DNA from: Clostridia bacterium
GTDB lineage: Bacteria; Bacillota; Clostridia; Oscillospirales; CAG-272
Assembly: GCA_017399145.1 (NCBI GenBank)
Contig: JAFQEG010000012.1
Span: 1 to 58,178 of the forward strand
Direction: 5' to 3'
DNA: 58,178 nucleotides
Below the pieces are notes generated by a model. That model saw only the letters and a program-made list of their open reading frames with translations, was not told the DNA's origin and ran no database searches. Made by a program: the position numbers and the translations under genes. Of this stretch, positions 8,056 through 53,220 are shown piece after piece. Position 1 is the first letter of the stretch. Each line of letters opens with the position of its first letter.

Positions 8056-8703
8056 ATGATACTCCAAGGCAAAAAATTCAACTTTTTAGGTGACAGCATT
8101 ACAGAAGGTCACGGCACAAGCGATTGGGCAACTAAGCCATACCACCAACAGTTAAAGGCTAACGCAGGGTTAGCTGAGGCTAGAAACTATGGTATCGGTG
8201 GCACAAAAATTGCAAGACTTCAAACAGTAACCGACCACCCCTTTGACCAAGACTTTAACCTTCGTGCGCCTACAATGGATAAGGACGCAGACGGCGTAGT
8301 AGTTTTCGGTGGCACAAACGACTTTGGACACAGGACAATTCCGCTAGGCACCTTTGAGGACAGAGACGTGCATACATTCTATGGTGGACTTCATACCCTT
8401 TGTCTATATTTGATTAAGGAATACGTTGGCAAAACTATCGTATTTATGACACCTATTCATAGATTAGAGGAAAAAGCGGATCCAAACAATGAAGTTTCAA
8501 GACCTCTTATCTGCTTTATTAAGGCTATAAGAGAGGTTTGTGAGTATTACTCAATTCCTGTACTTGACTTGTATAAGGAAAGTGGAATGCACGGCAACAT
8601 TTGGGCATGGTGCGAAAAGTATATGTCTGACGGACTTCATCCAAACGACCTAGGTCACGAAATAATTGCAAGCAAGCTTCAAAAATTCTTGGAGAGACTA
8701 TAA
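8056..8703 (+). CDS. SGNH/GDSL hydrolase, copy 1
   Basis: A 215-aa SGNH-fold esterase. Block I FLGDSITEG contains the nucleophile S14, GIGGT supplies the block II Gly, GGTNDFG is block III (Asn), and DGLHPNDLGH is block V with the Asp-His pair. It lacks a signal peptide, so it is intracellular; likely activities are deacetylation of sugars or acyl-ester hydrolysis. GAGGTAAG lies upstream of ATG 8056. The stop overlaps the start of copy 2 by 1 nt (TAATG). Confidence 0.9.
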   Translation: MILQGKKFNFLGDSITEGHGTSDWATKPYHQQLKANAGLAEARNYGIGGTKIARLQTVTDHPFDQDFNLRAPTMDKDADGVVVFGGTNDFGHRTIPLGTFEDRDVHTFYGGLHTLCLYLIKEYVGKTIVFMTPIHRLEEKADPNNEVSRPLICFIKAIREVCEYYSIPVLDLYKESGMHGNIWAWCEKYMSDGLHPNDLGHEIIASKLQKFLERL

Positions 8704-9347
8704 TGGAGTTAAAAAATAAGAAGTTTATATTTTTAGGTGACTCCATAACCGAGGGTGTTGGCACAGTGCCATTTCATCAGCAATTAAAGGAAATGGTAGG
8801 CTTGAAAGAGGCTATCAACTATGGTATCGGTGGTACACGTATTGCAAGACAAAGCGAAATGAAGGACCCTATCCGTGACAACGACTTTAATATGCGAGTT
8901 GACGCACTTGACAATGATATTGACGGTATAGTTGTAATGGGTGGCACAAACGATTACGGAAACGGTCAAGCACCACTCGGCACCTTTGAGGATAGACACG
9001 TATTTACCTTTTATGGCGCACTACATACTCTTTGCGTAAACCTAATTAGAAAATACGTTGATAAAACAATTGTATTTATGACCCCGCTACATAGGCATAA
9101 CGAATTTGGAGAGGGCACCTGGAAGCCCGAGGGCGTTGTGCAACACCCCCTTAGCGACTACGCACAAGCCGTACGCGAGGTTTGCGAGCATTATTCAATC
9201 CCTGTCCTTGACTTGTATAAGGAAGGCAGAATCCACGGCAACAATTGGGACTGGTGTAGAGAATATATGCCCGACGGACTCCACCCCAACGAAAAGGGCC
9301 ACGCAATAATAGCCGATAAGCTAAAAAAATTCCTAGAAAGCCTATAA
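8703..9347 (+). CDS. SGNH/GDSL hydrolase, copy 2
   Basis: A 214-aa paralogue of the preceding gene with the same block order: FLGDSITEG (S14), GIGGT, GGTNDYG and DGLHPNEKGH. The two proteins share long identical stretches (for example LGTFEDR, YSIPVLDLYKE, DGLHPN), so they arose by tandem duplication and have since diverged, mainly in loops between blocks I and III. Translation is coupled to copy 1 through the TAATG overlap, suggesting equal amounts and perhaps a heteromer or complementary substrates. A terminator follows directly. Confidence 0.9.
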   Translation: MELKNKKFIFLGDSITEGVGTVPFHQQLKEMVGLKEAINYGIGGTRIARQSEMKDPIRDNDFNMRVDALDNDIDGIVVMGGTNDYGNGQAPLGTFEDRHVFTFYGALHTLCVNLIRKYVDKTIVFMTPLHRHNEFGEGTWKPEGVVQHPLSDYAQAVREVCEHYSIPVLDLYKEGRIHGNNWDWCREYMPDGLHPNEKGHAIIADKLKKFLESL

Positions 9348-9719: not shown

Positions 9720-9738
9720 TGGGGTGGATGATGAGATT
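9720..9738. other. attL core (left attachment site)
   Basis: TGGGGTGGATGATGAGATT is identical to positions 44152-44170, which form the CCA end, acceptor stem 3' strand and T-arm edge of tRNA-His (minus strand). The next base differs (T versus C). Confidence 0.9.
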
Positions 9739-26500: not shown

Positions 26501-29500
26501 ATGGGAATTAAGGACTTAGATGGTAAGGACGTAGTAAATACAGCTTTAAGGTTGGCTGCAACATTATACGAGCCACAGACACGCATATCTAAGGGCACCT
26601 ATAAGACATTAGAGGGCATTGTTGATTATGGTGCAGGCCTTGTTGGTGGTATAGGTGGTTTATTCAACAAGGATTTTCAAGATAACGTCAGAAAGTTTAT
26701 AGAAGTTGATGCAGTTGGAAAAATGTGGGACGGATTAGGTCTTAGCAAGGTAGAGGAAATGTCCTATGTAAACGAGCTTGGCTTTGTGGGTGAAGTTGGA
26801 AGAGACGTTGCCGAGGGTGTTGGTGGAATGCTTCCAAGTCTTGCCTTGAGTCTAATACCAGGTGTGGGACCTGCAATTGGTACTGCAGTAACAGGTGTAA
26901 GTGCAGGTGGTAAGAGCATGGAGAGTGCTTTGGCAAAGGGGGCTGGATATGGAAATAGTCTTGCTTATGGAACTATTGCCGGTGTTGCCGAGGGTGCAAT
27001 CGAAAAGCTTGGTGGTGCAGTGCTTGGAGAGGGTACCTCACTTGTGGGCAAGGCACTTGCCGGTACTGCACTTGGAAATGCAACCTCAAAGGGGCTTGGT
27101 AAGGTTGCAATGACCTTTGCCTCAGAGGCAGGAGAGGAGCTACTCTCGGACGTTATCGACCCACTCAATAGCTTTGTAACAGGAGTTGACAAGAACATAG
27201 GAGAGAACTACAAGGAAACATTTAAGCCTGAAAATTTACTGAAAACTGCTATTGTAGGTGGAACTGTTGGCTCTGTTATGCAGGGTGGCAACGTTGCGAT
27301 GAACGCAAGCAAAAACAAGGCTACAGGTAGAGGTGGACTTAAAGCCACCTTTGCCGACGATTCTCTGAGGTACATACAAGAGGTATCAAAAAATTATGGC
27401 AATGACGCCGTTAAAAATGCAAAATATGACAAGGCTATTGCAATGAGCTTGAACGAAATATCAAAGAATATTACCAAGCTTGACGAGGGCTCACGTGCAA
27501 ATTATCTCAATAGCATAGGACCACTAAAAAATGCGTTTGACGATAAGGGAAACGTAAAGAGTACAGCAATGGCCAAGGATGTAAATCAAGAGGCTATTTC
27601 AAGCAATCTAAGGGCTATATCGGGCACTGTAAAGTATGCGCCTGTTAAGTCAAGTGAGACTATAAGTGAGGGTGCAAGGAATGTTAAGAGTACAATAGAA
27701 AAGGTTATAGGAGAGGGCGCAAACGTTGTTATCACAAACGATGCAGTATCAGGTGATGCACTCTTTAATCCTGATGACGACGTTATTTACGTAAACAATA
27801 AGGCAAATATCACCCAAAAATCTTTGGCATATGCTATTGGATTACACGAGGTTACTCACGCAACAGAGGGTACAGAGGCTTACGTGGAGCTCATGAATAC
27901 TCTTGAGGAATTAACAAAGGACGAAAAAACTCCACAAGAGGTCCTTGACATAATAGGCGATATAAGGTTAAGAAAGCTAAAAACTGCTTTTGCTTATCGA
28001 AAAGACCTAGAGGAAAGAGGCGAAAAGAGCGCAAAATATCTTATTGACACCGAAGTAGGAAGCGACCTTATGGGCGACCTTCTAGGCAATGATTACTTTA
28101 TCGAAAAGCTTGCTCATAGAAACGATAGCCTTGTAAAGAAAATGTACCACTCAATTACAAGTCTTATAAAAAGAAAAAATGCTGACTTGAGCAAAGACAG
28201 CATAAAATATTTGAATAAGCTTGCAAGCAAATTTGCAAGGGCAATTGACAACCGTAGAGGTGGTGTCAAGCTTTCCGACATCGGCGCCATGGACGACGAG
28301 TGGGAAGAAAATGAAGTTGAAAACGTTGACATTGATAGCAATGAGAGGTATAATAAAAAAAGAGGTACATATAGCCAATATAGAAGTTTAGCTATGCAAT
28401 GGGCAAACGCAACAAACACAAAAAAAGGTTCTACTAAAATGCTATATAATGCTCTAGATAACACTTGGAATTTGATAGTGGCGGACGACTCGGATATGGG
28501 TTATAGCGAGTTAGTATCTGTAGAAGACACAAAACAGAATAAAAACTATATAAATTCTTTATTTGATGAGGTGAAAAATGAAAGCGACAGAGGAGAACAA
28601 GAAACTGATAAAAGCATTTCTGAGGATTTTGTATCATATTGGGATGAATCGGGATACAGCGATAATGATAACGATGATGCTTCAAAACAAGGAGCAAATG
28701 GACGAATTGGTGATTTTTATGCAAAACAATCGTCAAGCGACGGATTTGGAGATTTTAGAAAAAGCTACTCAGATAGTGGACGCATAAACGAGAATGAAGT
28801 TAAAAACGAATCGGATAAATTTGATAGCGAAGGGAATAATCTTTCCTTAGAGCAAGCAAAATACTTTGCCAATAGTAAGGTGCGCGATAAAAATGGTAAT
28901 TTGCTTGTGGTGTATCATGGTACCGAAAACGACTTCAATGTTTTTAAGAGTAGTAGTGGCTTTAATGAGTTTTTCTTCACTGATAGCATAGAAGCAAGCA
29001 AGGATTATGGAAGCAAAACTAAAACTGTTTATCTAAATCTTGAAAATCCATACGTAATTGATTATGAGGGAGGCTTTGATAAGCAAATACTCGACGATAT
29101 TGATTACGCAAAAGCAAAAGGATACGACGGAGTAATAGCATTAAATACCTATGATGGAGCTAATACACATAACCAGTATGTGGCATTTAAGAAAAACCAA
29201 ATTAAAAATGTTGACAATAAAGCTCCAACTGACAAATTCGACATTCGCTACTCAAGAAGGACCACAGGAGACGATTTAGACGTTGATTTTGTTAAGGACG
29301 AGGACGGAAGTATAAGAATTACAACTAACGACCTGGAGCGTGCGCAGAAGCTTGAGAAAAAGAGAAGAAACAACTCCGGCGAGGATAAGCTTGAGGTCGC
29401 AGAAGAGCAAAGAAAAGAAAGCTTAAGAGGTCTTATAGGTGAAGAGGTTATAGAAGAGGTTTCTGCCTCTAATGAGGTAACAAGGCTAAGGAAGTATATT

Positions 29501-32500
29501 GCAGACAATATGCATCTTAAGAAGTACGACTCTAAGGATGCTATTGCTATAATCGACGAGCTTATGGGAATAATTGAGCTTTCTGATGAGAAAAATCCTG
29601 TTTTTGCAAAGCTAAAGGGCAAGAAGCAAACAGAAGTAAAGAGAATGCTTGTAGATGCGCTTAACACCAAGGAGCCGGGCGAAAGAAACGGTGTAGCCTT
29701 AGAAATTGCAAGATACTTAATCTACAATACAACTATAACCGACGCTTACGAGAGTAACGAGGACGTTGGTCTGGCGCTTAACATTATTGAGACGCTTAAG
29801 CCTTACCTTCACGGCATCAACCTTGACAATATTAAGGGTGAAATAAACGTAAAATATGACAAGAACAAGTCGGCTTACGCAATGTGGAGCAAGAAAAAGG
29901 GCGAAAGAGGAGTGTCTGCCGATATGGTTGCGCAAGCCCTCGAGGACGAGCTTGGTATTAAAGTTGAGGCGATAAACGAGGCAGATATATTTCTTGAGCT
30001 CGACGATATGTACCGAAACGCAAAGAGGGTTATAAGGGAGTCAATACCTGAAAAGTCAATCCTTGGAGAGGTGCTCAACTCTAAAGAGGCACACGAGCTT
30101 GAGCAAAAGCTTGCAAAGGAAATTCTTTTAGCATACGACAAGTATGGAAAGGAAACAAAATTCTCTAAGCTACAGCAAAGGTACGAGGGTAAAATTAGCG
30201 ATTTGACAAAGAGGCTTAAGGATGCAGGCATAAGAAACACCTTAGAAAACAGGATTCTTAAGGAAATACAAAAGCTTAAGGACTCTAAAAATGGTAAATA
30301 TGCTAATGCTACTCAGCATCACACAGAGGCATTAAACGGCATTAAGAGCTTGCTTTCTAAAATCAATTCAAGAGAGCAGATTAATAGAAGCTCAACAAGA
30401 GAAATCTTGTCAAAGCTGGACGAGTGGTACACAGACGACAACCCGATTTTGACAAATAACGCCGTAAAGGACGATAAAAACAAGGAAAGCAAGGGTTTTT
30501 ACTCTTCTGCAGTAAAAGAAATGCTAAGCTACTTTAAGGAAACGGTGGAGTACGTTGAGAATGGAGAGGGCGAGGCTGTTAAGAAGGCAGAAAAGCCTCT
30601 TACAACAACAGAGCTTGAAATGGTAAACAAGGTGCTTGCTCACGTAAACCACGTTATTGAAAATTACGGTAAAATATTCCGTTTTGGAAAGTATGTTGAG
30701 GCAGGGGACATTTCAAGCGAAATGCAGGATGTTTTGACAGAGGCTAAAGAAAATCAATCAGGCTTTGCCTCTATGCTACAAAGAAGCTTGCTGACAAATG
30801 CAGTTACCATTAAATGGGCACAATACTTTAGCGACGTTGAGCTTGTTATGTCGCAATGGGATGGCCACGAGGATGGATTCTTTAGTCAATCCTACAGAGA
30901 GCTTGTGCTTGGTCTTATAGGTCAAAAGGCTGACGAAATGGAGATTCTTCGCGAATATGATGAGTTCGAAAGGACTCACAAAAAGTATATGAAGAAGCTT
31001 AAGAGCGACAAAAATACCATAAACGTTACCTTTACAGTCAACACAAGAGAGGGAACGATTAAGGATATTAACATTCCAAGGTATGCAGCAATTGACTTGT
31101 ATATGGTATCGAAAACCGGCGAGGCAATGAAAACTCTTGAGGAGACAGGCTGGTACCTAGACACAGACGAAAGCCATGAAAGAAAGGATGCAAATCCTAT
31201 CACCAAGGAGCAGATAAAGGAGCTTGAAAAGCAATTTACCGAAGAGGATAGGGAGCTTATTAAGATACTTGAAAAGGTTTATAACGAGGATTGTAAAAAG
31301 CTCAAGCACAATACAGATATGAAGAGGATGGGATTCTCTAATATAATTACAGGCTATTACTATCCAATACATAGAATATCCTCAACGAGCATAGACTCAA
31401 ACGAAATGCTTGTTGAAATGGAAAGAGTTAGCAATATTTCAGCTAACAAGAGTCGTGTTAAGGGTGCAAAAAATGCTATAATAGTAGGTAACTGCCTAAC
31501 GAAGTTCAAAAGGCACGTAAATGCAGTGACTAGATATGCAAATTTGTCTATTCCTATTGAAAATATCAATGTGCTACTCAACTTAGACACAAACGATAAT
31601 CCAAACAAGCCAACCTCTATAAGAACAATGATAGAGTCCTCAAAAATGTGGAATGGCGCAATTGATTATTTAAGAAAGCTAGCAGATAGCGTTCAACAGG
31701 TAGGAGTAAAGGACGACGTTGGTGGTAAAATAATATCATTCTTGCGTGGCTCCTTTGCAAAGTATCAGCTGGGCGCTAATCCTAAGGTATGGTTTTCGCA
31801 GCTTTCATCCTACCTTGCAGCCTATGGTGAATTAAGATTTACTTCTCTTGCAAGGGCAGGCACAATTAAGGGAGCTATTAAGGATTCCGACGTTGACAAA
31901 TACTGTCAGCTTGCAGCAATCAGACACTATGAAATGGGTGCAACTAAGGCAATGGCAGTAAGCGAAAGAATTGGGGCTGTAGGTGAGCTTCTTAGCAAGC
32001 CTATTGAGGCAGTTGACAGAGGTGTTATTAAGATGCTATATGCAGCTTGTCAGGCAGAGGCAGAGTCGGTGCATAAGCTAAAGGTAGGCACCGAGGAAAA
32101 CAAGATTAAAGCCGGAGAGATATTGGAAAGGGTAATCCTACGCACTCAACAAAATCAGCTTGTAACCGAGCAGAGCGCTGCAATGAGAAGCAAGAGCGAA
32201 TTTGTAAGGGCATTCACCATGTTCAATGCCGACTCTATGAAGATGGTGAGCAGATGGCTACAGTCTGTAGGTGAGCTTTCAACTCTTATCCGTAAGCTAA
32301 AGAAGGCTAAGGAGAGGGGAGACACTAAGAGAATCGAAGAGCATAACACCAGGATAAAGAAGGCAAGGAAAAGCCTGGCTAAATATTCTGCATCTATTAT
32401 TGCGATTTCAGCCTATATGACCCTTTTAGCAAAGGGCTTTAAGTTGCTTTATAACAAGGACGACGAGGAGCCGTTTTGGGATTGGTTTTTTGGTGGAATT

Positions 32501-33538
32501 TGGGATAATATGATTGGTATGCTACCACTTGTAAGAGACGTTTATTCCTATTACAATGACGGCTATGAGGTAGATACATTTCTTACCGAAACTGTAAACA
32601 ACGTGCTTTCATCCACTAAGCAAACAATGGATATGTTTGGCGACCTTGTGGACGGCAAGGCAGTGTCTGAGCAGGATATCGCAAAAAATACAAAAGCGCT
32701 AGTGTATGCAATAGGACAGGTTTTTGGTATTCCGTTTAGAAATATGTATAATTTTGTAACAGGAATTACCAGGAGAATTAACGACGGAGCCGGTCTTGCA
32801 GTTGATTCCTTCTTTCAGGAGCCAAGCGAGGCAAATATCAAGGACAAGCTAAGCAAGGCTATAAGCGAGGGTGACTCTGTTACCGAAAGAGTATCAATTG
32901 ACTTGTTGCTATCAAACAGAGATATTTCCATCGAGGACAACGTTCTTAAGAAGGAAATGGACCGACTTATTAAGCTCAATTTGACAAAGGAAGAGACGGA
33001 CAAAAACGATTATAGTCCGTTCATTCGAAAAATACCCGAAATTTTGACAATTGATGGCGAAGAGGTAGAGATTTCCACAAAGGATAAAAACACCTTTAAA
33101 ACGGGCTTAAAAACGGCTGAAAGAGATAATGCGAAAATGGTTAAGACGCTTATGTATAAGAAGCTAGATGATGAGAGCAAGGCTTATTGCTTACGAGTTG
33201 TGTATAACTTCCACCATCAAAGCTCGATGGCAAGCACCTCGGACGAGGCAAAGACTAGGCTTGTATATTTCGGTGGGTCCGTTGAAATCAATATTCTTGC
33301 GCTGATTATGGCATTTGCAAAGGATGCTAAGAGCGATACAAGGCAGAGCAGAAGGGAAAAGATAGAGGCTTACGTAAGAAGCTTTGGTCTTAGCCCTGTA
33401 AAAGCCTCACTAGCGCTTAGATGCGTAGGCTATAGTGACAAGGACAGAGACGGAATGGTAGAAAGATACATTAACAGTATGAGAGGGCTTTCCAAAGAGG
33501 AAAGAGACGAGTTTTTGCACTATGCTAAAATAGGATAA
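26501..33538 (+). CDS. 2345-aa phage polyvalent protein (metallopeptidase + ART-like + C-terminal helical domain)
   Basis: A very large late protein, probably packaged and injected with the DNA. Residues ~95-240 are Gly/Ala-rich and hydrophobic (membrane-active region). HEVTH at 449-453 within a polyvalent-type metallopeptidase region supplies a zinc HExxH site. Residues ~785-922 carry VVYHGTENDF (H806) and end FDIRYSR, matching the ADP-ribosyltransferase domain of phage polyvalent proteins (ART-PolyVal). Long coiled coils fill ~960-1400. Residues ~1830-2025 resemble the C-terminal polyvalent-associated (LPD38-like) region, with a hydrophobic helix near 1963. AAGGAGGAGC precedes ATG 26501. 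Individual family names are from memory; the domain layout is directly visible. Confidence 0.8.
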   Translation: MGIKDLDGKDVVNTALRLAATLYEPQTRISKGTYKTLEGIVDYGAGLVGGIGGLFNKDFQDNVRKFIEVDAVGKMWDGLGLSKVEEMSYVNELGFVGEVGRDVAEGVGGMLPSLALSLIPGVGPAIGTAVTGVSAGGKSMESALAKGAGYGNSLAYGTIAGVAEGAIEKLGGAVLGEGTSLVGKALAGTALGNATSKGLGKVAMTFASEAGEELLSDVIDPLNSFVTGVDKNIGENYKETFKPENLLKTAIVGGTVGSVMQGGNVAMNASKNKATGRGGLKATFADDSLRYIQEVSKNYGNDAVKNAKYDKAIAMSLNEISKNITKLDEGSRANYLNSIGPLKNAFDDKGNVKSTAMAKDVNQEAISSNLRAISGTVKYAPVKSSETISEGARNVKSTIEKVIGEGANVVITNDAVSGDALFNPDDDVIYVNNKANITQKSLAYAIGLHEVTHATEGTEAYVELMNTLEELTKDEKTPQEVLDIIGDIRLRKLKTAFAYRKDLEERGEKSAKYLIDTEVGSDLMGDLLGNDYFIEKLAHRNDSLVKKMYHSITSLIKRKNADLSKDSIKYLNKLASKFARAIDNRRGGVKLSDIGAMDDEWEENEVENVDIDSNERYNKKRGTYSQYRSLAMQWANATNTKKGSTKMLYNALDNTWNLIVADDSDMGYSELVSVEDTKQNKNYINSLFDEVKNESDRGEQETDKSISEDFVSYWDESGYSDNDNDDASKQGANGRIGDFYAKQSSSDGFGDFRKSYSDSGRINENEVKNESDKFDSEGNNLSLEQAKYFANSKVRDKNGNLLVVYHGTENDFNVFKSSSGFNEFFFTDSIEASKDYGSKTKTVYLNLENPYVIDYEGGFDKQILDDIDYAKAKGYDGVIALNTYDGANTHNQYVAFKKNQIKNVDNKAPTDKFDIRYSRRTTGDDLDVDFVKDEDGSIRITTNDLERAQKLEKKRRNNSGEDKLEVAEEQRKESLRGLIGEEVIEEVSASNEVTRLRKYIADNMHLKKYDSKDAIAIIDELMGIIELSDEKNPVFAKLKGKKQTEVKRMLVDALNTKEPGERNGVALEIARYLIYNTTITDAYESNEDVGLALNIIETLKPYLHGINLDNIKGEINVKYDKNKSAYAMWSKKKGERGVSADMVAQALEDELGIKVEAINEADIFLELDDMYRNAKRVIRESIPEKSILGEVLNSKEAHELEQKLAKEILLAYDKYGKETKFSKLQQRYEGKISDLTKRLKDAGIRNTLENRILKEIQKLKDSKNGKYANATQHHTEALNGIKSLLSKINSREQINRSSTREILSKLDEWYTDDNPILTNNAVKDDKNKESKGFYSSAVKEMLSYFKETVEYVENGEGEAVKKAEKPLTTTELEMVNKVLAHVNHVIENYGKIFRFGKYVEAGDISSEMQDVLTEAKENQSGFASMLQRSLLTNAVTIKWAQYFSDVELVMSQWDGHEDGFFSQSYRELVLGLIGQKADEMEILREYDEFERTHKKYMKKLKSDKNTINVTFTVNTREGTIKDINIPRYAAIDLYMVSKTGEAMKTLEETGWYLDTDESHERKDANPITKEQIKELEKQFTEEDRELIKILEKVYNEDCKKLKHNTDMKRMGFSNIITGYYYPIHRISSTSIDSNEMLVEMERVSNISANKSRVKGAKNAIIVGNCLTKFKRHVNAVTRYANLSIPIENINVLLNLDTNDNPNKPTSIRTMIESSKMWNGAIDYLRKLADSVQQVGVKDDVGGKIISFLRGSFAKYQLGANPKVWFSQLSSYLAAYGELRFTSLARAGTIKGAIKDSDVDKYCQLAAIRHYEMGATKAMAVSERIGAVGELLSKPIEAVDRGVIKMLYAACQAEAESVHKLKVGTEENKIKAGEILERVILRTQQNQLVTEQSAAMRSKSEFVRAFTMFNADSMKMVSRWLQSVGELSTLIRKLKKAKERGDTKRIEEHNTRIKKARKSLAKYSASIIAISAYMTLLAKGFKLLYNKDDEEPFWDWFFGGIWDNMIGMLPLVRDVYSYYNDGYEVDTFLTETVNNVLSSTKQTMDMFGDLVDGKAVSEQDIAKNTKALVYAIGQVFGIPFRNMYNFVTGITRRINDGAGLAVDSFFQEPSEANIKDKLSKAISEGDSVTERVSIDLLLSNRDISIEDNVLKKEMDRLIKLNLTKEETDKNDYSPFIRKIPEILTIDGEEVEISTKDKNTFKTGLKTAERDNAKMVKTLMYKKLDDESKAYCLRVVYNFHHQSSMASTSDEAKTRLVYFGGSVEINILALIMAFAKDAKSDTRQSRREKIEAYVRSFGLSPVKASLALRCVGYSDKDRDGMVERYINSMRGLSKEERDEFLHYAKIG

Positions 33539-33545
33539 AAAAGAA

Positions 33546-33576
33546 ACGACCACAGCTTTTTGTGGTCGTTTTTTTG
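33546..33576 (+). terminator. late-operon terminator
   Basis: ACGACCACA (33546-33554) pairs with TGTGGTCGT (33561-33569), followed by a run of T. It lies 8 nt after the giant gene's stop and closes the late transcript. Confidence 0.9.
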
Positions 33577-33688
33577 GTAAAAGTATAAAATTACACCAAA
33601 AAAAAGTATTTTTGGACATAAAAATGCGTAATTTATTAGTAGAGGGGTTTGGTAGAATTGTTGTTTGAGATTTTTTAGGAGGATTAAG

Positions 33689-33796
33689 TTGTCACAATTT
33701 TTGAACACTCCTGTCCTTGAGGTAAGTCCCTTGCAGGAACTGTGCAGACCTAACTGCATAAGTTGGGTATTCTTGAGTGGAAAAACATTGCTCTAG
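33689..33796 (+). CDS. possible 35-aa ORF inside the RNA region
   Basis: TTG 33689 lies 6 nt after a full AGGAGG site (33677-33682). The frame ends at TAG 33794-33796 and contains LCRPNCISWVF with two Cys. The strong binding site makes translation plausible, but the unusual start codon and overlap with RNA stems leave it open whether this is a leader peptide, a small protein or chance. Confidence 0.35.
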   Translation: MSQFLNTPVLEVSPLQELCRPNCISWVFLSGKTLL

Positions 33797-33920
33797 CAGA
33801 GCCTCATCCGTAGAGCGTAAACATGATGTTTGCAATAGCTTATCCGCAATTACGCCTGTTTTGAGATAAAAACAGAAAAGGGGCTATTGCCATACTCAAG
33901 ATTCAAGGAAAACAAATAGG

Positions 33921-33957
33921 AAAGACCGTTGGAGTGGTGCCCGACGGTCTTTTTATT
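33921..33957 (+). terminator. terminator of the RNA candidate
   Basis: AAAGACCGT (33921-33929) pairs with ACGGTCTTT (33944-33952), followed by TTATTTT. The T-run is on the right, so it acts on plus-strand transcripts, supporting rightward transcription of the preceding 300 nt. Confidence 0.8.
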
Positions 33958-33960
33958 TTG

Positions 33961-34353
33961 TTAGCAAGACAATTTAATTAAAATCTCTTTCACCTGTTGT
34001 TGAATGCGAGAGACCGAGCAATCTCGTTTTTTGGCAATATCCTTGTAGGGCTTTGCGTCCAAATAAACGTCTTGAAAAATTGCGTGCTCTTGAGGCTCTA
34101 AGGACTCTATTCCACAAGAGTATTTTGTCAAAATCTCGATGGATTTGTCGATATATTTGTCAGCATTTAGATTTGAAGATATACTTTTAAATCTCTCTAT
34201 CTTATCTTTGCTGCATCCGGGTATGCTAGACAATGACTCGGCGCGACCTTCTGCAGATACAAAGACGTCGATAATGTAAAGTAGCTTGCGAGACGCCTTT
34301 TTTAGTTCACTTAGGTCCTTGCGCACCCTTGAATATTTGTCCTTTCTCTTCAT
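33961..34353 (-). CDS. sigma-70 region 4-like regulator (late activator candidate)
   Basis: A 130-aa protein from the ATG at 34353 (AGAGG upstream). The C-terminal ~50 residues (EHAIFQDVYLDAKPYKDIAKKRDCSVSRIQQQVK) form a sigma region 4-type helix-turn-helix. Small sigma-like proteins at the end of phage early operons (ArpU/RinA-like) switch on the late genes. Its place as the last gene of the leftward operon fits. It overlaps the upstream gene by 4 nt. Target promoter not shown. Confidence 0.65.
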   Translation of the reverse strand: MKRKDKYSRVRKDLSELKKASRKLLYIIDVFVSAEGRAESLSSIPGCSKDKIERFKSISSNLNADKYIDKSIEILTKYSCGIESLEPQEHAIFQDVYLDAKPYKDIAKKRDCSVSRIQQQVKEILIKLSC

Positions 34354-34538
34354 AGCTTTAAACCTCTTTCCTCGATGGTAGAGAGGGGCTCCTTCCAATT
34401 AAGCATTGTTGTTTTATTCCATTCTGTTTGGAGAGTTGCGATTCCGTCCTCAATTTCCGTAATAGTCCACTCTAAAGGGTTTTCCATACTGCCTAGTGGT
34501 AAGAGGACTCTGTCTCCTACATTAAATTTAGTTTCCAT
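34350..34538 (-). CDS. 62-aa phage protein, unknown
   Basis: Starts METKFNVGDRVLLPLGS and contains a beta-strand-rich core with KOW/SH3-like character (GDRVLLP ... WTITEIEDGIATLQ). It overlaps its neighbours on both sides (4 nt and 11 nt), so it is part of the early operon. No function can be assigned. Confidence 0.6.
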   Translation of the reverse strand: METKFNVGDRVLLPLGSMENPLEWTITEIEDGIATLQTEWNKTTMLNWKEPLSTIEERGLKL

Positions 34539-34968
34539 TTGTAAGCTCCTTGATATGTATATTGTGTACGTGAAGCATTAGCTTCTTTTTAAGGCGATAA
34601 GCCTGTGTCTTTGTCGCCTTGCTCTTGGTATCCTCTACAATTTTATTTCCGTATTTATCCCTGTACACAAAGTCGGCAACGTAGGTTATACCTTTTTCGA
34701 TTAGCTTGCCCTTGTGAAGTCCACCTCGCTTGCCAACCGTTGCAGGCTCTCGTTTTTCGGGAATAAGCACAAAAGGCACTTGCACCTTAAGCTCCGTTAT
34801 TTCGCCTGCCTTTTGGAGCATTAGAAGCTCACCATAACGATTAGCCTCGAACATAGAGTCGAACTCTATGCCGAAGGCTTTTGTTTTCTGTGCGTTATAC
34901 TTATTTTGCTTAGGCACCTTAATGCCTAATAGCCTTTGTGCTTCCTTTTCGCTGATATTCCAAGCCAT
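34528..34968 (-). CDS. DUF1064-type phage nuclease (VRR/RusA-like context)
   Basis: A 146-aa protein with KYNAQKTKAFGIEFDSMFEANRY, then ELKVQVPFVLIPEKR, then YVADFVYRDKYGNKIVEDTK and a final KKKLM segment. This order (FDS-E, then AD(F)-x-Y, then VEDxK) is the DUF1064 family, which has a PD-(D/E)xK-type nuclease fold and replaces Holliday junction resolvases in some phages. It likely processes replication intermediates. It lies 7 nt downstream of a membrane peptide gene. Confidence 0.85.
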   Translation of the reverse strand: MAWNISEKEAQRLLGIKVPKQNKYNAQKTKAFGIEFDSMFEANRYGELLMLQKAGEITELKVQVPFVLIPEKREPATVGKRGGLHKGKLIEKGITYVADFVYRDKYGNKIVEDTKSKATKTQAYRLKKKLMLHVHNIHIKELTNGN

Positions 34969-42964: not shown

Positions 42965-44059
42965 ATGGCAAGCTTTGAGCAAAACAAAAATAACAAAAAA
43001 TGGTCTGTGCGCTTTCGTGATACAATAGACGGAGTGGAAAAAAACATGCGCCTTTCCGGTTTCAAAACCAAAAAAGAGGCGCAAGCAGCATATATTGAGT
43101 ACGAGAACAAGAGAAAGCTTGAGAGGGAAAAAGAAGAGCAGAGCAAAATCGACTTTGCTAAAGATATGTACTTTGAAACCTTAAAAGAAAAGTATCTTGA
43201 ACATGTCAAAACACGAAATAAATATAGCTCCTGGTACTCAACTCAAAATAAGATTGAGAAGAATATAGCTCCTTACTTTGACGATAAGCAGATAAAGGAT
43301 ATAACACCCTTGGAAATACTGAAATGGCAACAAAGCATTGATGCGTTATCTTTCAACTACAAGAGAGGGCTGAGAGCTCTCTTGAATAGTATATTTAAGT
43401 TTGCCGAAAGATACTATGATATCAAAAATGTGGTTGCAAAGGTGGAGCCTTTCCGTAATTTAGAGGCTAAAAAGGAAATGCTCCATTGGACGTTGGACGA
43501 ATTTCAAAAATTTATTGAAAAAGTTGACTATGAGTACGAAATGTTTTTTAGATTTCTCTACATCACAGGATGCAGAAAGGGAGAGGCTTTAGCCCTAAGC
43601 TGGAATGACTTTTTGTTTGACGATGGAAAAGTAATCATTAATAAGAGCATGACAAGGAAGGCGCAGGAAGGAGCTTATGCAATAACAACACCAAAGAACG
43701 TAACCAGTAACAGAACAATAGACTTACCGGAGAACTTTATAGAACAACTAAAAAAATATAAAAAATGGCAGCAGGATAATAAAAAGAAATGCGATTTCGT
43801 GTTTGGTGGAGAACGACCTTTTGCAGAAACCACGACTGATAGACTTTTTAGGAATGCGTGCGAAAGAGCAGATGTAAAAAGAATTAGAATCCATGATTTA
43901 AGGCACTCGTGTGCATCTCTCTTGATTTCAGAAGGTGTTAACATTGTTGCAGTGTCAAAACGATTGGGCCACAAAAACATTGAGCAAACTCTTAACACGT
44001 ACAGTCACATGATGCCTGACGACGTTACAAAGATGCTTAGAGTGCTGCAAAATATATAG
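42965..44059 (+). CDS. tyrosine-recombinase integrase
   Basis: A 364-aa integrase. An N-terminal arm-binding (AP2-like) domain is at about residues 1-60, a helical core-binding domain at ~65-170, and the catalytic domain carries R204 (TGCRKGEA), H310-x-x-R313 (HDLRHS), H336 (LGHKN) and nucleophile Y346 (NTYSHM). It sits just inside attR next to the tRNA, as expected for integration at the tRNA-His 3' end. Its direction is towards attR, so in the circular phage it reads across attP. Confidence 0.95.
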   Translation: MASFEQNKNNKKWSVRFRDTIDGVEKNMRLSGFKTKKEAQAAYIEYENKRKLEREKEEQSKIDFAKDMYFETLKEKYLEHVKTRNKYSSWYSTQNKIEKNIAPYFDDKQIKDITPLEILKWQQSIDALSFNYKRGLRALLNSIFKFAERYYDIKNVVAKVEPFRNLEAKKEMLHWTLDEFQKFIEKVDYEYEMFFRFLYITGCRKGEALALSWNDFLFDDGKVIINKSMTRKAQEGAYAITTPKNVTSNRTIDLPENFIEQLKKYKKWQQDNKKKCDFVFGGERPFAETTTDRLFRNACERADVKRIRIHDLRHSCASLLISEGVNIVAVSKRLGHKNIEQTLNTYSHMMPDDVTKMLRVLQNI

Positions 44060-44151: not shown

Positions 44152-44170
44152 TGGGGTGGATGATGAGATT
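44152..44170. other. attR core (right attachment site)
   Basis: Identical 19 nt to the attL core at 9720-9738. It is the 3' end of tRNA-His, including the encoded CCA, so the tRNA remains complete after integration. Confidence 0.9.
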
Positions 44171-50828: not shown

Positions 50829-50881
50829 ATAAATGTATAATAAATTTAATAAAAAACAACAAATTAAGAAGGAAGAATGTT

Positions 50882-51327
50882 ATGAAAAGAATACTAAAAA
50901 AACATGTATACTTGGATTGACTTCAATCACGAGCGCTATGGTGATTTTTATTCTCACCTGCATTGCTTATATTCTGTTTGCATTCTCAGATAATGCAAAC
51001 GGAATTGGAGTGTCAATAGTTGTTCCAATTATTGTTTTCAATATATATCTGATCAGTGTTTTTGTGTTTTTTCTAAAGATAAATTTTAAGTTTTATTCGA
51101 TATACGCAGTTTTACATTTGCTGTTAACAACGGCAATGTGGTTTTTGCTCTTTTTCTATTTATCGCATTGGTTTATTTCTTTGTTTAATGTTTCAGAAAC
51201 AGGTGACATAGGTGGAATTATAGTTTTATTTACAATAATACCAATTTTAGCAGAACTTGTGTTAGCCACTATTGCTTTTATAGTAATTAAGATAGTTGTC
51301 AAGAGTAAAAACGTGAAGACAGGGTGA
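50882..51327 (+). pseudogene. frameshifted copy of the 148-aa membrane protein
   Basis: Nearly identical to the intact gene at 52774-53220, but the A-run after codon 5 has 7 A instead of 8. Translation from ATG 50882 would stop after 12 codons; the rest of the frame is open and unchanged, so the break is recent, phase-variable or a sequencing error. An in-frame ATG at 50833 lacks a ribosome binding site. The product would be a four-helix membrane protein of unknown function. Confidence 0.75.
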
Positions 51328-52773: not shown

Positions 52774-53220
52774 ATGAAAAGAATACTAAAAAAAACATGT
52801 ATACTTGGATTGACTTCAATCACGAGCGCTATGGTGATTTTTATTCTCACCTGCATTGCTTATATTTTGTTTGCATTCTCAGATAATGCAAACGGAATTG
52901 GAGTGTCAATAGTTGTTCCAATTATTGTTTTCAATATATACCTGATCAGTGCTTTTGCGTTTTTTCTAAAGATAAATTTTAAGTTTTATTCGATATACGC
53001 AGTTTTACACTTGCTGTTAACAACGGCAATGTGGTTTTTGCTCTTTTTCTATTTATCGCATTGGTTTATTTCTTTGTTTAATGTTTCAGAAACAGGTGAC
53101 GTAGGTGGAATTATAGTTTTATTTACAATAATACCCATTTTAGCAGAACTTGTGTTAGCCACTATTGCTTTTATAGTAATTAAGATAGTTGTCAAGAGTA
53201 AAAACGTGAAGACAGGGTGA
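52774..53220 (+). CDS. 148-aa four-helix membrane protein (intact copy)
   Basis: ATG 52774 follows CGAGGAGG at good distance. The protein has four hydrophobic segments (about residues 13-34, 43-62, 73-95 and 118-140) and ends VKSKNVKTG. The intact 8-A run near codon 7 distinguishes it from the frameshifted copy at 50882. No family recognised. It is flanked on both sides by REP-like repeats and was probably duplicated with them. Confidence 0.75.
   Translation: MKRILKKTCILGLTSITSAMVIFILTCIAYILFAFSDNANGIGVSIVVPIIVFNIYLISAFAFFLKINFKFYSIYAVLHLLLTTAMWFLLFFYLSHWFISLFNVSETGDVGGIIVLFTIIPILAELVLATIAFIVIKIVVKSKNVKTG

Follow-up and report, generated by a model that had tools for sequence, protein, structure and literature searches.

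The DNA analysed here, called the window below, is the whole of a 58,178-nucleotide contig (C8), one of 44 contigs in a 1.83-Mb genome of a Clostridia bacterium, and it contains a prophage whose limits are at about 9720 and 44170. Both prophage ends carry the 19-bp sequence TGGGGTGGATGATGAGATT, repeated exactly and in the same direction (9720–9738 and 44152–44170); the right copy coincides with the 3′ end of a tRNA-His gene and is adjoined by a tyrosine integrase gene (42965–44059), and the two repeats are probably the attachment sites. The late genes of the prophage lie on the plus strand, the last of them encoding a 2345-aa protein that ends at 33538, and the early genes lie on the minus strand, starting near 40 kb and finishing with a sigma-70-region-4-like gene that ends at 33961. 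The RNA region described here sits between the plus-strand late module and this convergent early operon, and its borders are formed by the following features:

33544–33571, both readings: terminator hairpin of the late module, with 11 pairs and a T-rich tail in its minus-strand reading
33714–33953, plus strand: FuFi-1-like RNA core, matched by Rfam family RF02986 over its full length
33919–33957, plus strand: intrinsic terminator with loop AGUGGUGC, located by terminator scan and folding
33961–34398, minus strand: last gene of the convergent early operon, with a sigma-70 region 4 domain and a weak likeness to Q-type antitermination proteins

The initial annotation had placed one terminator after the late module and a second, plus-strand one at the end of the RNA region. 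The first is borne out by the hairpin at 33544–33571, which in its minus-strand reading could also serve as the end of the convergent early operon. The second was found at 33919–33954 and has the most pairs among the four terminator-like sites in 33000–34600.

A few observations on the surrounding genes may be recorded here. The 2345-aa late protein (26501–33538, plus strand) carries an ART-PolyVal ADP-ribosyltransferase domain (Pfam E 4.4e-19) and is of the polyvalent protein type, and its C-terminal 400 aa are 34–45% identical in four relatives of the same genus. Outside the prophage, two nearly identical proteins that look hydrophobic by eye are encoded about 1.5 kb apart on the plus strand (50833–51327 and 52774–53220), and a Pfam scan of the first gave no match. 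To the left of the prophage lie two adjacent similar plus-strand genes (8056–8703 and 8703–9347), the first of which matches GDSL-lipase families.

The region had been flagged as a candidate structured RNA with its own terminator that could be matched to no class familiar to the annotator (6S, GOLLD, ROOL, OLE). When the window was searched against Rfam at gathering thresholds, three tRNAs alone passed. A permissive search of 33530–34000 returned the FuFi-1 family (RF02986) at 33714–33953, aligned over positions 1–175 of 175 with 45.3 bits and an E-value of 1.1e-8, and the runner-up, a family on the opposite strand, had an E-value of 0.21; none of the four classes named above was among the 21 weak permissive matches. 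The FuFi-1 match is thus full length but its score falls below the gathering and inclusion cut-off of 59.6 bits, at which curated membership is granted, so that the window RNA should be regarded as a divergent relative of FuFi-1 and not as a formal member. A model built independently of the window (R1, from an alignment, A1, of 19 viral sequences) matches 33712–33954 over positions 1–164 of 164 with 35.7 bits and an E-value of 9.6e-8 on a rough calibration, or 8e-7 when the same match is made in a larger search. The Rfam match, model R1 and covariation in relatives thus uphold a structured RNA with its own terminator, and it is the assignment to an unknown class that falls, since a catalogued family lies so close.

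The window RNA shares with FuFi-1 the full-length match, the order of helices, the P2 stem, the 3′ linker and the terminator; it differs in scoring below gathering, in a P2 loop that is 2 nt shorter, in a long P5, and in lying between late and early modules instead of beside repressor genes. FuFi-1 is listed in Rfam as type sRNA and was reportedly discovered by Weinberg et al. in 2017. To our knowledge it is a named class without a reported function, and searches of one open-access library by family name and by the accession RF02986 found no work on it. Of the identity of the window RNA as a divergent FuFi-1 relative, and of its anatomy, we are confident; we also think it likely that the region is a prophage small RNA gene, probably regulatory, by a mode of action that we infer below. 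The parts of the RNA, all on the plus strand, are these:

33712–33717: 5′ strand of P1 as placed by R1, 5 of its 6 pairs with the strand that follows AAGU being formed, including two G-U pairs
33744–33763: P2 hairpin, GCAG-ACCUAA-CUGC and then AUAAGU, its loop 2 nt shorter than the consensus and a U replacing the G after AAGU
33771–33778 and 33894–33901: P3, a perfect 8-bp helix identical with the long stem of the initial annotation; arms TCTTGAGT and ACTCAAGA as DNA, UCUUGAGU and ACUCAAGA as RNA
33786–33797: P4 segment CAUUGCUCUAGC, complementary (G-U pairs included) to 33928–33939, in and beside the terminator loop
33832–33839 and 33883–33890: second stem, spanning 33832–33890, where the variable P5 lies in other members; arms GCAATAGC and GCTATTGC as DNA, GCAAUAGC and GCUAUUGC as RNA
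33815–33820 and 33850–33855: GCGTAA and TTACGC, arms of a proposed crossing helix
33904–33918: 3′ linker CAAGGAAAACAAAUA, which corresponds to the conserved UAGGGUAAACAAAUUU

All six arms that had been listed earlier were located in the sequence with the pairings given for them, and the second stem is probably P5, with which we equate it by position. Folding of 33676–33960 gives −93.8 kcal/mol with a z-score of −4.97 (0 of 200 shuffles as good), and the longer stretch 33580–33960 gives a z-score of −3.70 (0 of 100). Within 33714–33915 there are two perfect 8-bp stems where mononucleotide shuffles lead one to expect 0.32, the probability of two or more being 0.06.

The pseudoknot suggested by the initial annotation, in which GCGTAA pairs with TTACGC, is rejected: the arms exist, yet 53.5% of 1000 shuffles contain a crossing helix of at least 6 bp, which places it at chance level. 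Relatives do support another pseudoknot, formed by the loops of P4 and of the terminator, and it is best seen in the family as a whole.

Relatives were gathered with sequence patterns and with models. A degenerate pattern for the P2 hairpin led to 29 viral contigs, 10 of them over the Rfam cut-off, and three further patterns to 40 additional records, 20 of them over it. The pattern found 60 loci among genome contigs; 28 of them have an R1 score of at least 45 bits, and of these 27 are clostridial by title and one is labelled just "bacterium". Most members were found with the P2 hairpin as seed, so its invariance is partly a matter of selection; loci L002, L135–L137 and L198–L200 came through model searches and not through the P2 seed. 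Matches in whole genomes amount to at least 4 of 38 genomes of relatives at E 0.001 (three of these later judged weak), at least 3 of 391 genomes of the class at E 1e-6 and at least 3 of 197 genomes of the order with R1; these are minimum counts, as the first-look filter failed to pick up the copy in the window itself. One copy in a genome of the same genus (L002, genome G018) scores 53.2 bits and has a 470-aa ORF 443 bases downstream, which is probably the single transposase-domain match in a tally of neighbouring genes that does not name its members.

Direct DNA searches of phages with the window, L036, L106, L043 and L037 gave no match, nor did a search of plasmids with L106. The same kind of search with L041 gave a match to Fusobacterium phage Funu2 that covers the linker and terminator, 17% of the query, and a match of 24 bases to an Enterococcus phage. 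In Funu2 (L208:4001–4048) the 3′ linker and terminator alone remain of the RNA, and this piece is either a remnant or a recombination joint.

The A1 alignment of 19 sequences has 38 pairs in six helices, with 94.0% of cells paired and 33 of the 38 pairs changed on both sides, a level that 0 of 500 shuffles reach; when the partners are slid by one to three columns, pairing drops to 31–46%. Covariation in relatives had been put forward as a check on the region, and it is strong at the family helices. An alignment of 60 sequences that includes the window has 31 pairs, 93.4% paired, and a covariation score of 0.778 against 0.240 in shuffles, although it was fitted to the structure and so leans towards it, and one of its five covariation measures, both-side changes, is unexceptional (35 of 500 shuffles reach it). 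In this structure-fitted alignment the window row keeps 29 of 31 family pairs standard across P1, P2, P3, P4 and the terminator. Its P1 has one pair missing and two G-U pairs; at P2 the GCAG/CUGC stem is kept, the loop is two bases short, and AAGUU stands where the family has AAGUG. As read from the aligned sequences, the FuFi-1 architecture comprises P1, a hairpin with a GCAG/CUGC stem, P3 with P4 and P5 inside it, a 3′ linker rich in purines, and a terminator.

A further trait is a kissing helix that joins the loops of P4 and of the terminator, which are complementary to each other; in A1, 94.7% of its cells are paired and six of seven pairs have changed on both sides. Before the loop-swap test, L003, L004, L005 and L058 were dropped as weak matches in which the layout is missing by eye, L140, L149 and L171 were dropped as the same stretches as L135, L002 and L127, and five exact duplicates were removed. 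In 55 of the 61 distinct members, at most 6 of 57–60 foreign loops then pair as well as the member's own; the exceptions are the window, L002, L123, L124, L127 and L153, the last being partial and having no scorable region. The near-duplicates L170, which is from Blautia parvula NBRC 113351, and L195, the partial L153 and sometimes L200 were omitted from the duplex-energy, window-pair, promoter and offset counts and from some neighbour counts. Duplex energies were computed for 60 members and scored for 56 (two had no terminator found and two no P2 match), giving a median of −11.6 kcal/mol for the own loop against −5.7 kcal/mol for foreign ones. A limit stricter than that of the loop swap, allowing no more than 2 of 55 foreign loops to do as well, is passed by 33 of the 56 members. 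The position is also regular, in that the best pairing stretch begins 21–27 bases past AAGU in 52 of 58 members when offsets of 14 to 50 are searched. Of 58 members, 26 carry a U-turn motif (YUNR) at the 5′ side of their P4 kissing stretch, whereas random positions give 16%; this is suggestive only.

For the window itself the picture is less sharp. Its kissing pair, CAUUGCUCU with GGAGUGGUG, has −10.0 kcal/mol, several G-U pairs and an offset of 22. By duplex energy 2 of 55 foreign loops are as good, and by the simpler loop-swap score, where it failed, 54 of 60 are; the shuffle p runs from 0.04 to 0.42, varying with the amount of loop counted. Judged from these alignments and energies, the covarying kissing helix is a family trait of which the window appears to carry a weaker version. 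The printed Rfam structure of FuFi-1 shows no such helix, but since an Rfam printout cannot show pseudoknots, the authors of the family may know of it.

The RNA could also be a protein-binding or scaffolding molecule, in which the P2 loop and the 3′ linker bind a host or phage protein and which possibly forms a homo-oligomer through intermolecular kissing. We find this rather doubtful as the main explanation. In its favour, P2 and the 3′ linker have unpaired positions that are invariant across A1 (for P2 the invariance is partly by selection), and the kissing sequences vary from copy to copy yet match within one RNA; there is precedent as well, in that GOLLD, ROOL and OLE form homo-oligomers according to PMC12286853. 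The kissing may, however, equally be intramolecular, and no partner gene was found among the neighbours.

A second family trait lies upstream of the RNA. In the window it consists of the following plus-strand elements:

33650–33658: candidate extended −10 element TGGTAGAAT, without a good −35, placed roughly as in relatives
33677–33682: Shine-Dalgarno sequence AGGAGG
33689–33796: short ORF with a TTG start, putatively coding for 35 aa (MSQFLNTPVLEVSPLQELCRPNCISWVFLSGKTLL), its N-terminus fitting M-x-x-[LF]-L-x-x-P

The earlier description of the region as ORF-poor therefore needs correction, as a 35-codon frame begins with TTG at 33689 behind a Shine-Dalgarno sequence. A Shine-Dalgarno-led short frame with a common motif precedes the RNA in 48 of 64 loci, the window among them, with TTG as start in 39, ATG in 7 and GTG in 2; among the controls, such a frame turns up in 3.2% of shuffles and on 3 of the 64 reverse strands. 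A stricter form of the motif is found in 40 of 64 loci, against 0.2% of shuffles and 1 of 64 reverse strands. The family consensus is near MTKLLTLPC, and the window frame begins MSQFLNTPV. Some copies have the frame abutting the core, others have about 100–150 bases between, and because the Rfam FuFi-1 model begins at P1, the frame falls outside it. Loci L105–L118 have an extra stretch between frame and core, roughly 100 bases 5′ of the core, in which complementary pieces such as GATACGGCG and CACCGTATC were noticed by eye and left uncounted.

Of 46 loci, 37 have a sigma-A-type promoter scoring at least 10 ahead of the frame, a score that 3.9% of mononucleotide shuffles reach, and 38 have TG in the extended −10 position. 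The window has no clear promoter upstream of its frame, as its sigma-A score of 7 is at control level (control mean 7.7).

So regular a frame raises the question of whether the short peptide is the conserved product, which would make the transcript a small mRNA whose 3′ structure controls stability or translation. We hold this to be unlikely. Beyond the motif counts, an alignment of 42 of the 48 frames (38 distinct) has no stop in the putative frame, whereas frame +1 has 35 and frame +2 has one; all four CCN codons are used for the proline of the motif, and longer variants of the frame retain the motif in frame. However, 103 of 300 column permutations reach the pN/pS of 0.74 seen over nine codons, and the ratio for frame +1 is equally low (0.70 vs 0.71 over eight codons), so that nucleotide constraint explains the conservation equally well, and the C-terminal parts of the short frames are free to vary. 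An intracellular action of the peptide, such as one on repressor-type regulators from neighbouring genes, we likewise regard as improbable.

The genes around the family copies were surveyed with a plain ORF scan and not a gene finder, and Pfam was run on 79 of 79 minus-strand and 61 of 90 plus-strand ORFs on the 3′ side and on 68 of 102 minus-strand and 0 of 82 plus-strand ORFs on the 5′ side. Of the 3′-side ORFs, 24 of the 79 on the opposite strand and 30 of the 61 on the same strand have an HTH_3 domain, and the 61 same-strand ORFs also include 8 with an S24 peptidase and 6 with CI-repressor domains. On the 5′ side, 9 of 68 opposite-strand ORFs have HTH_3, and the antirepressor domains pRha, Bro-N and ANT were found once each. 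A convergent ORF of at least 55 aa on the opposite strand ends between −40 and +80 bases from the RNA end in 34 of 61 loci, and 13 of these 34 ORFs match HTH_3. Many copies thus adjoin phage genes of the Cro/CI type, and the abundance of such neighbours makes the immunity region a common place for the RNA, often opposite early genes. The window is unusual, its convergent neighbour being the sigma-70-like gene and the repressor-type gene lying 7 kb off.

How the unit came to lie there is suggested by the flanking genes. The C-terminal 400 aa of the late protein match in 7 of 57 genomes of relatives, the window's own included, and no viral contig encoding a relative of this part was found. In L202, from the same genus, a late protein (43% identity over 408 positions) and a sigma-like gene (29% over 133 positions, E 1.6e-7) are separated by about 40 bases that hold a terminator, and R1 found no RNA in the locus; this is one relative with both neighbours conserved. 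Across L202–L206 (3.6–4.2 kb each) R1 found nothing except a 6-bit fragment in L205; in L203–L206 the late protein is present and the convergent gene was undetected, and L207, a short late-protein match, lay outside the R1 search. The absence of the unit from L202 and its intact terminator fit an inserted moron cassette at this place, and the window unit looks like a moron that was inserted into the prophage, with loss in L202 as the alternative reading of the same sequences. Of the moron trait of having a promoter and terminator of its own, the terminator is clear and the promoter score is at control level.

Weakness of that kind recurs in the window copy, whose promoter, P1 and kissing helix all fall below those of relatives, and decay is accordingly to be considered. 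The unit might be a degraded, functionless FuFi-1 insertion carried along as a passenger, and phage Funu2, which retains linker and terminator alone, shows that remnants occur. We nevertheless give this little credence, in view of the perfect 8-bp helix P3, the intact terminator, the preserved P2 stem, the folding z-score of −4.97 and the open short frame.

A bolder reading, which we consider quite improbable, would join the two halves of the family and make FuFi-1 a two-part phage element, a translated short peptide together with an RNA that locks its terminator through a private kissing code, passed on as a moron and serving as a signal of self-recognition or of an immunity-like kind; each lineage would then keep its own loop pair, so that copies would recognise their own kind. 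The notion that there is no gene here and merely a terminator region with incidental pairings has in its favour that some pairings, such as GCGTAA/TTACGC, are at chance, and it is very improbable given the full-length matches of both RF02986 and R1 and the covariation of the family.

Returning to the reading of the region as a regulatory small RNA gene, its layout would be that of a Shine-Dalgarno sequence and short frame, a compact FuFi-1-type RNA and an intrinsic terminator, with a promoter that is weak at best. The unit would have entered the prophage as a moron and would be transcribed in the lysogen, and the kissing helix would fold the 3′ end back on the body of the RNA and so shield it. 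The RNA might then be a regulatory RNA of the lysogeny programme, as the traits of the family point to an RNA with its own promoter in the region where lysogeny versus growth is decided; a role related to lysogeny is plausible, and we put it forward tentatively. The simplest action would be on early transcripts that cross the same DNA from the other strand, as the 3′ tail of the early operon would do if it ended at 33544–33571. The geometry allows such pairing with an opposing early transcript in many copies, and we think it a rather unlikely way for the RNA to act.

Several known systems provide points of comparison. The c4 RNA of P1, the CI RNA of P4 and the sar RNA of P22 are phage immunity antisense RNAs and resemble FuFi-1 copies in being RNAs in or near an immunity region. 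GOLLD and ROOL are structured noncoding RNAs associated with phages or prophages and much larger than the FuFi-1-like unit; the window RNA is likewise structured and has no Rfam match to either. DicF and DicB of Qin, as described in PMC10448788, pair a prophage small RNA with a neighbouring small protein, and the window unit is like them in combining a small RNA and a putative small protein within a prophage, a working likeness that implies no kinship. Overall, the traits assembled here for the family, namely the kissing of the terminator loop, the upstream frame, the promoter and the repressor-gene neighbours, make FuFi-1 a testable class where it had been an orphan one, and its terminator loops, tied to the body of the RNA by covarying pairs, would offer a useful case for the control of RNA 3′ ends.
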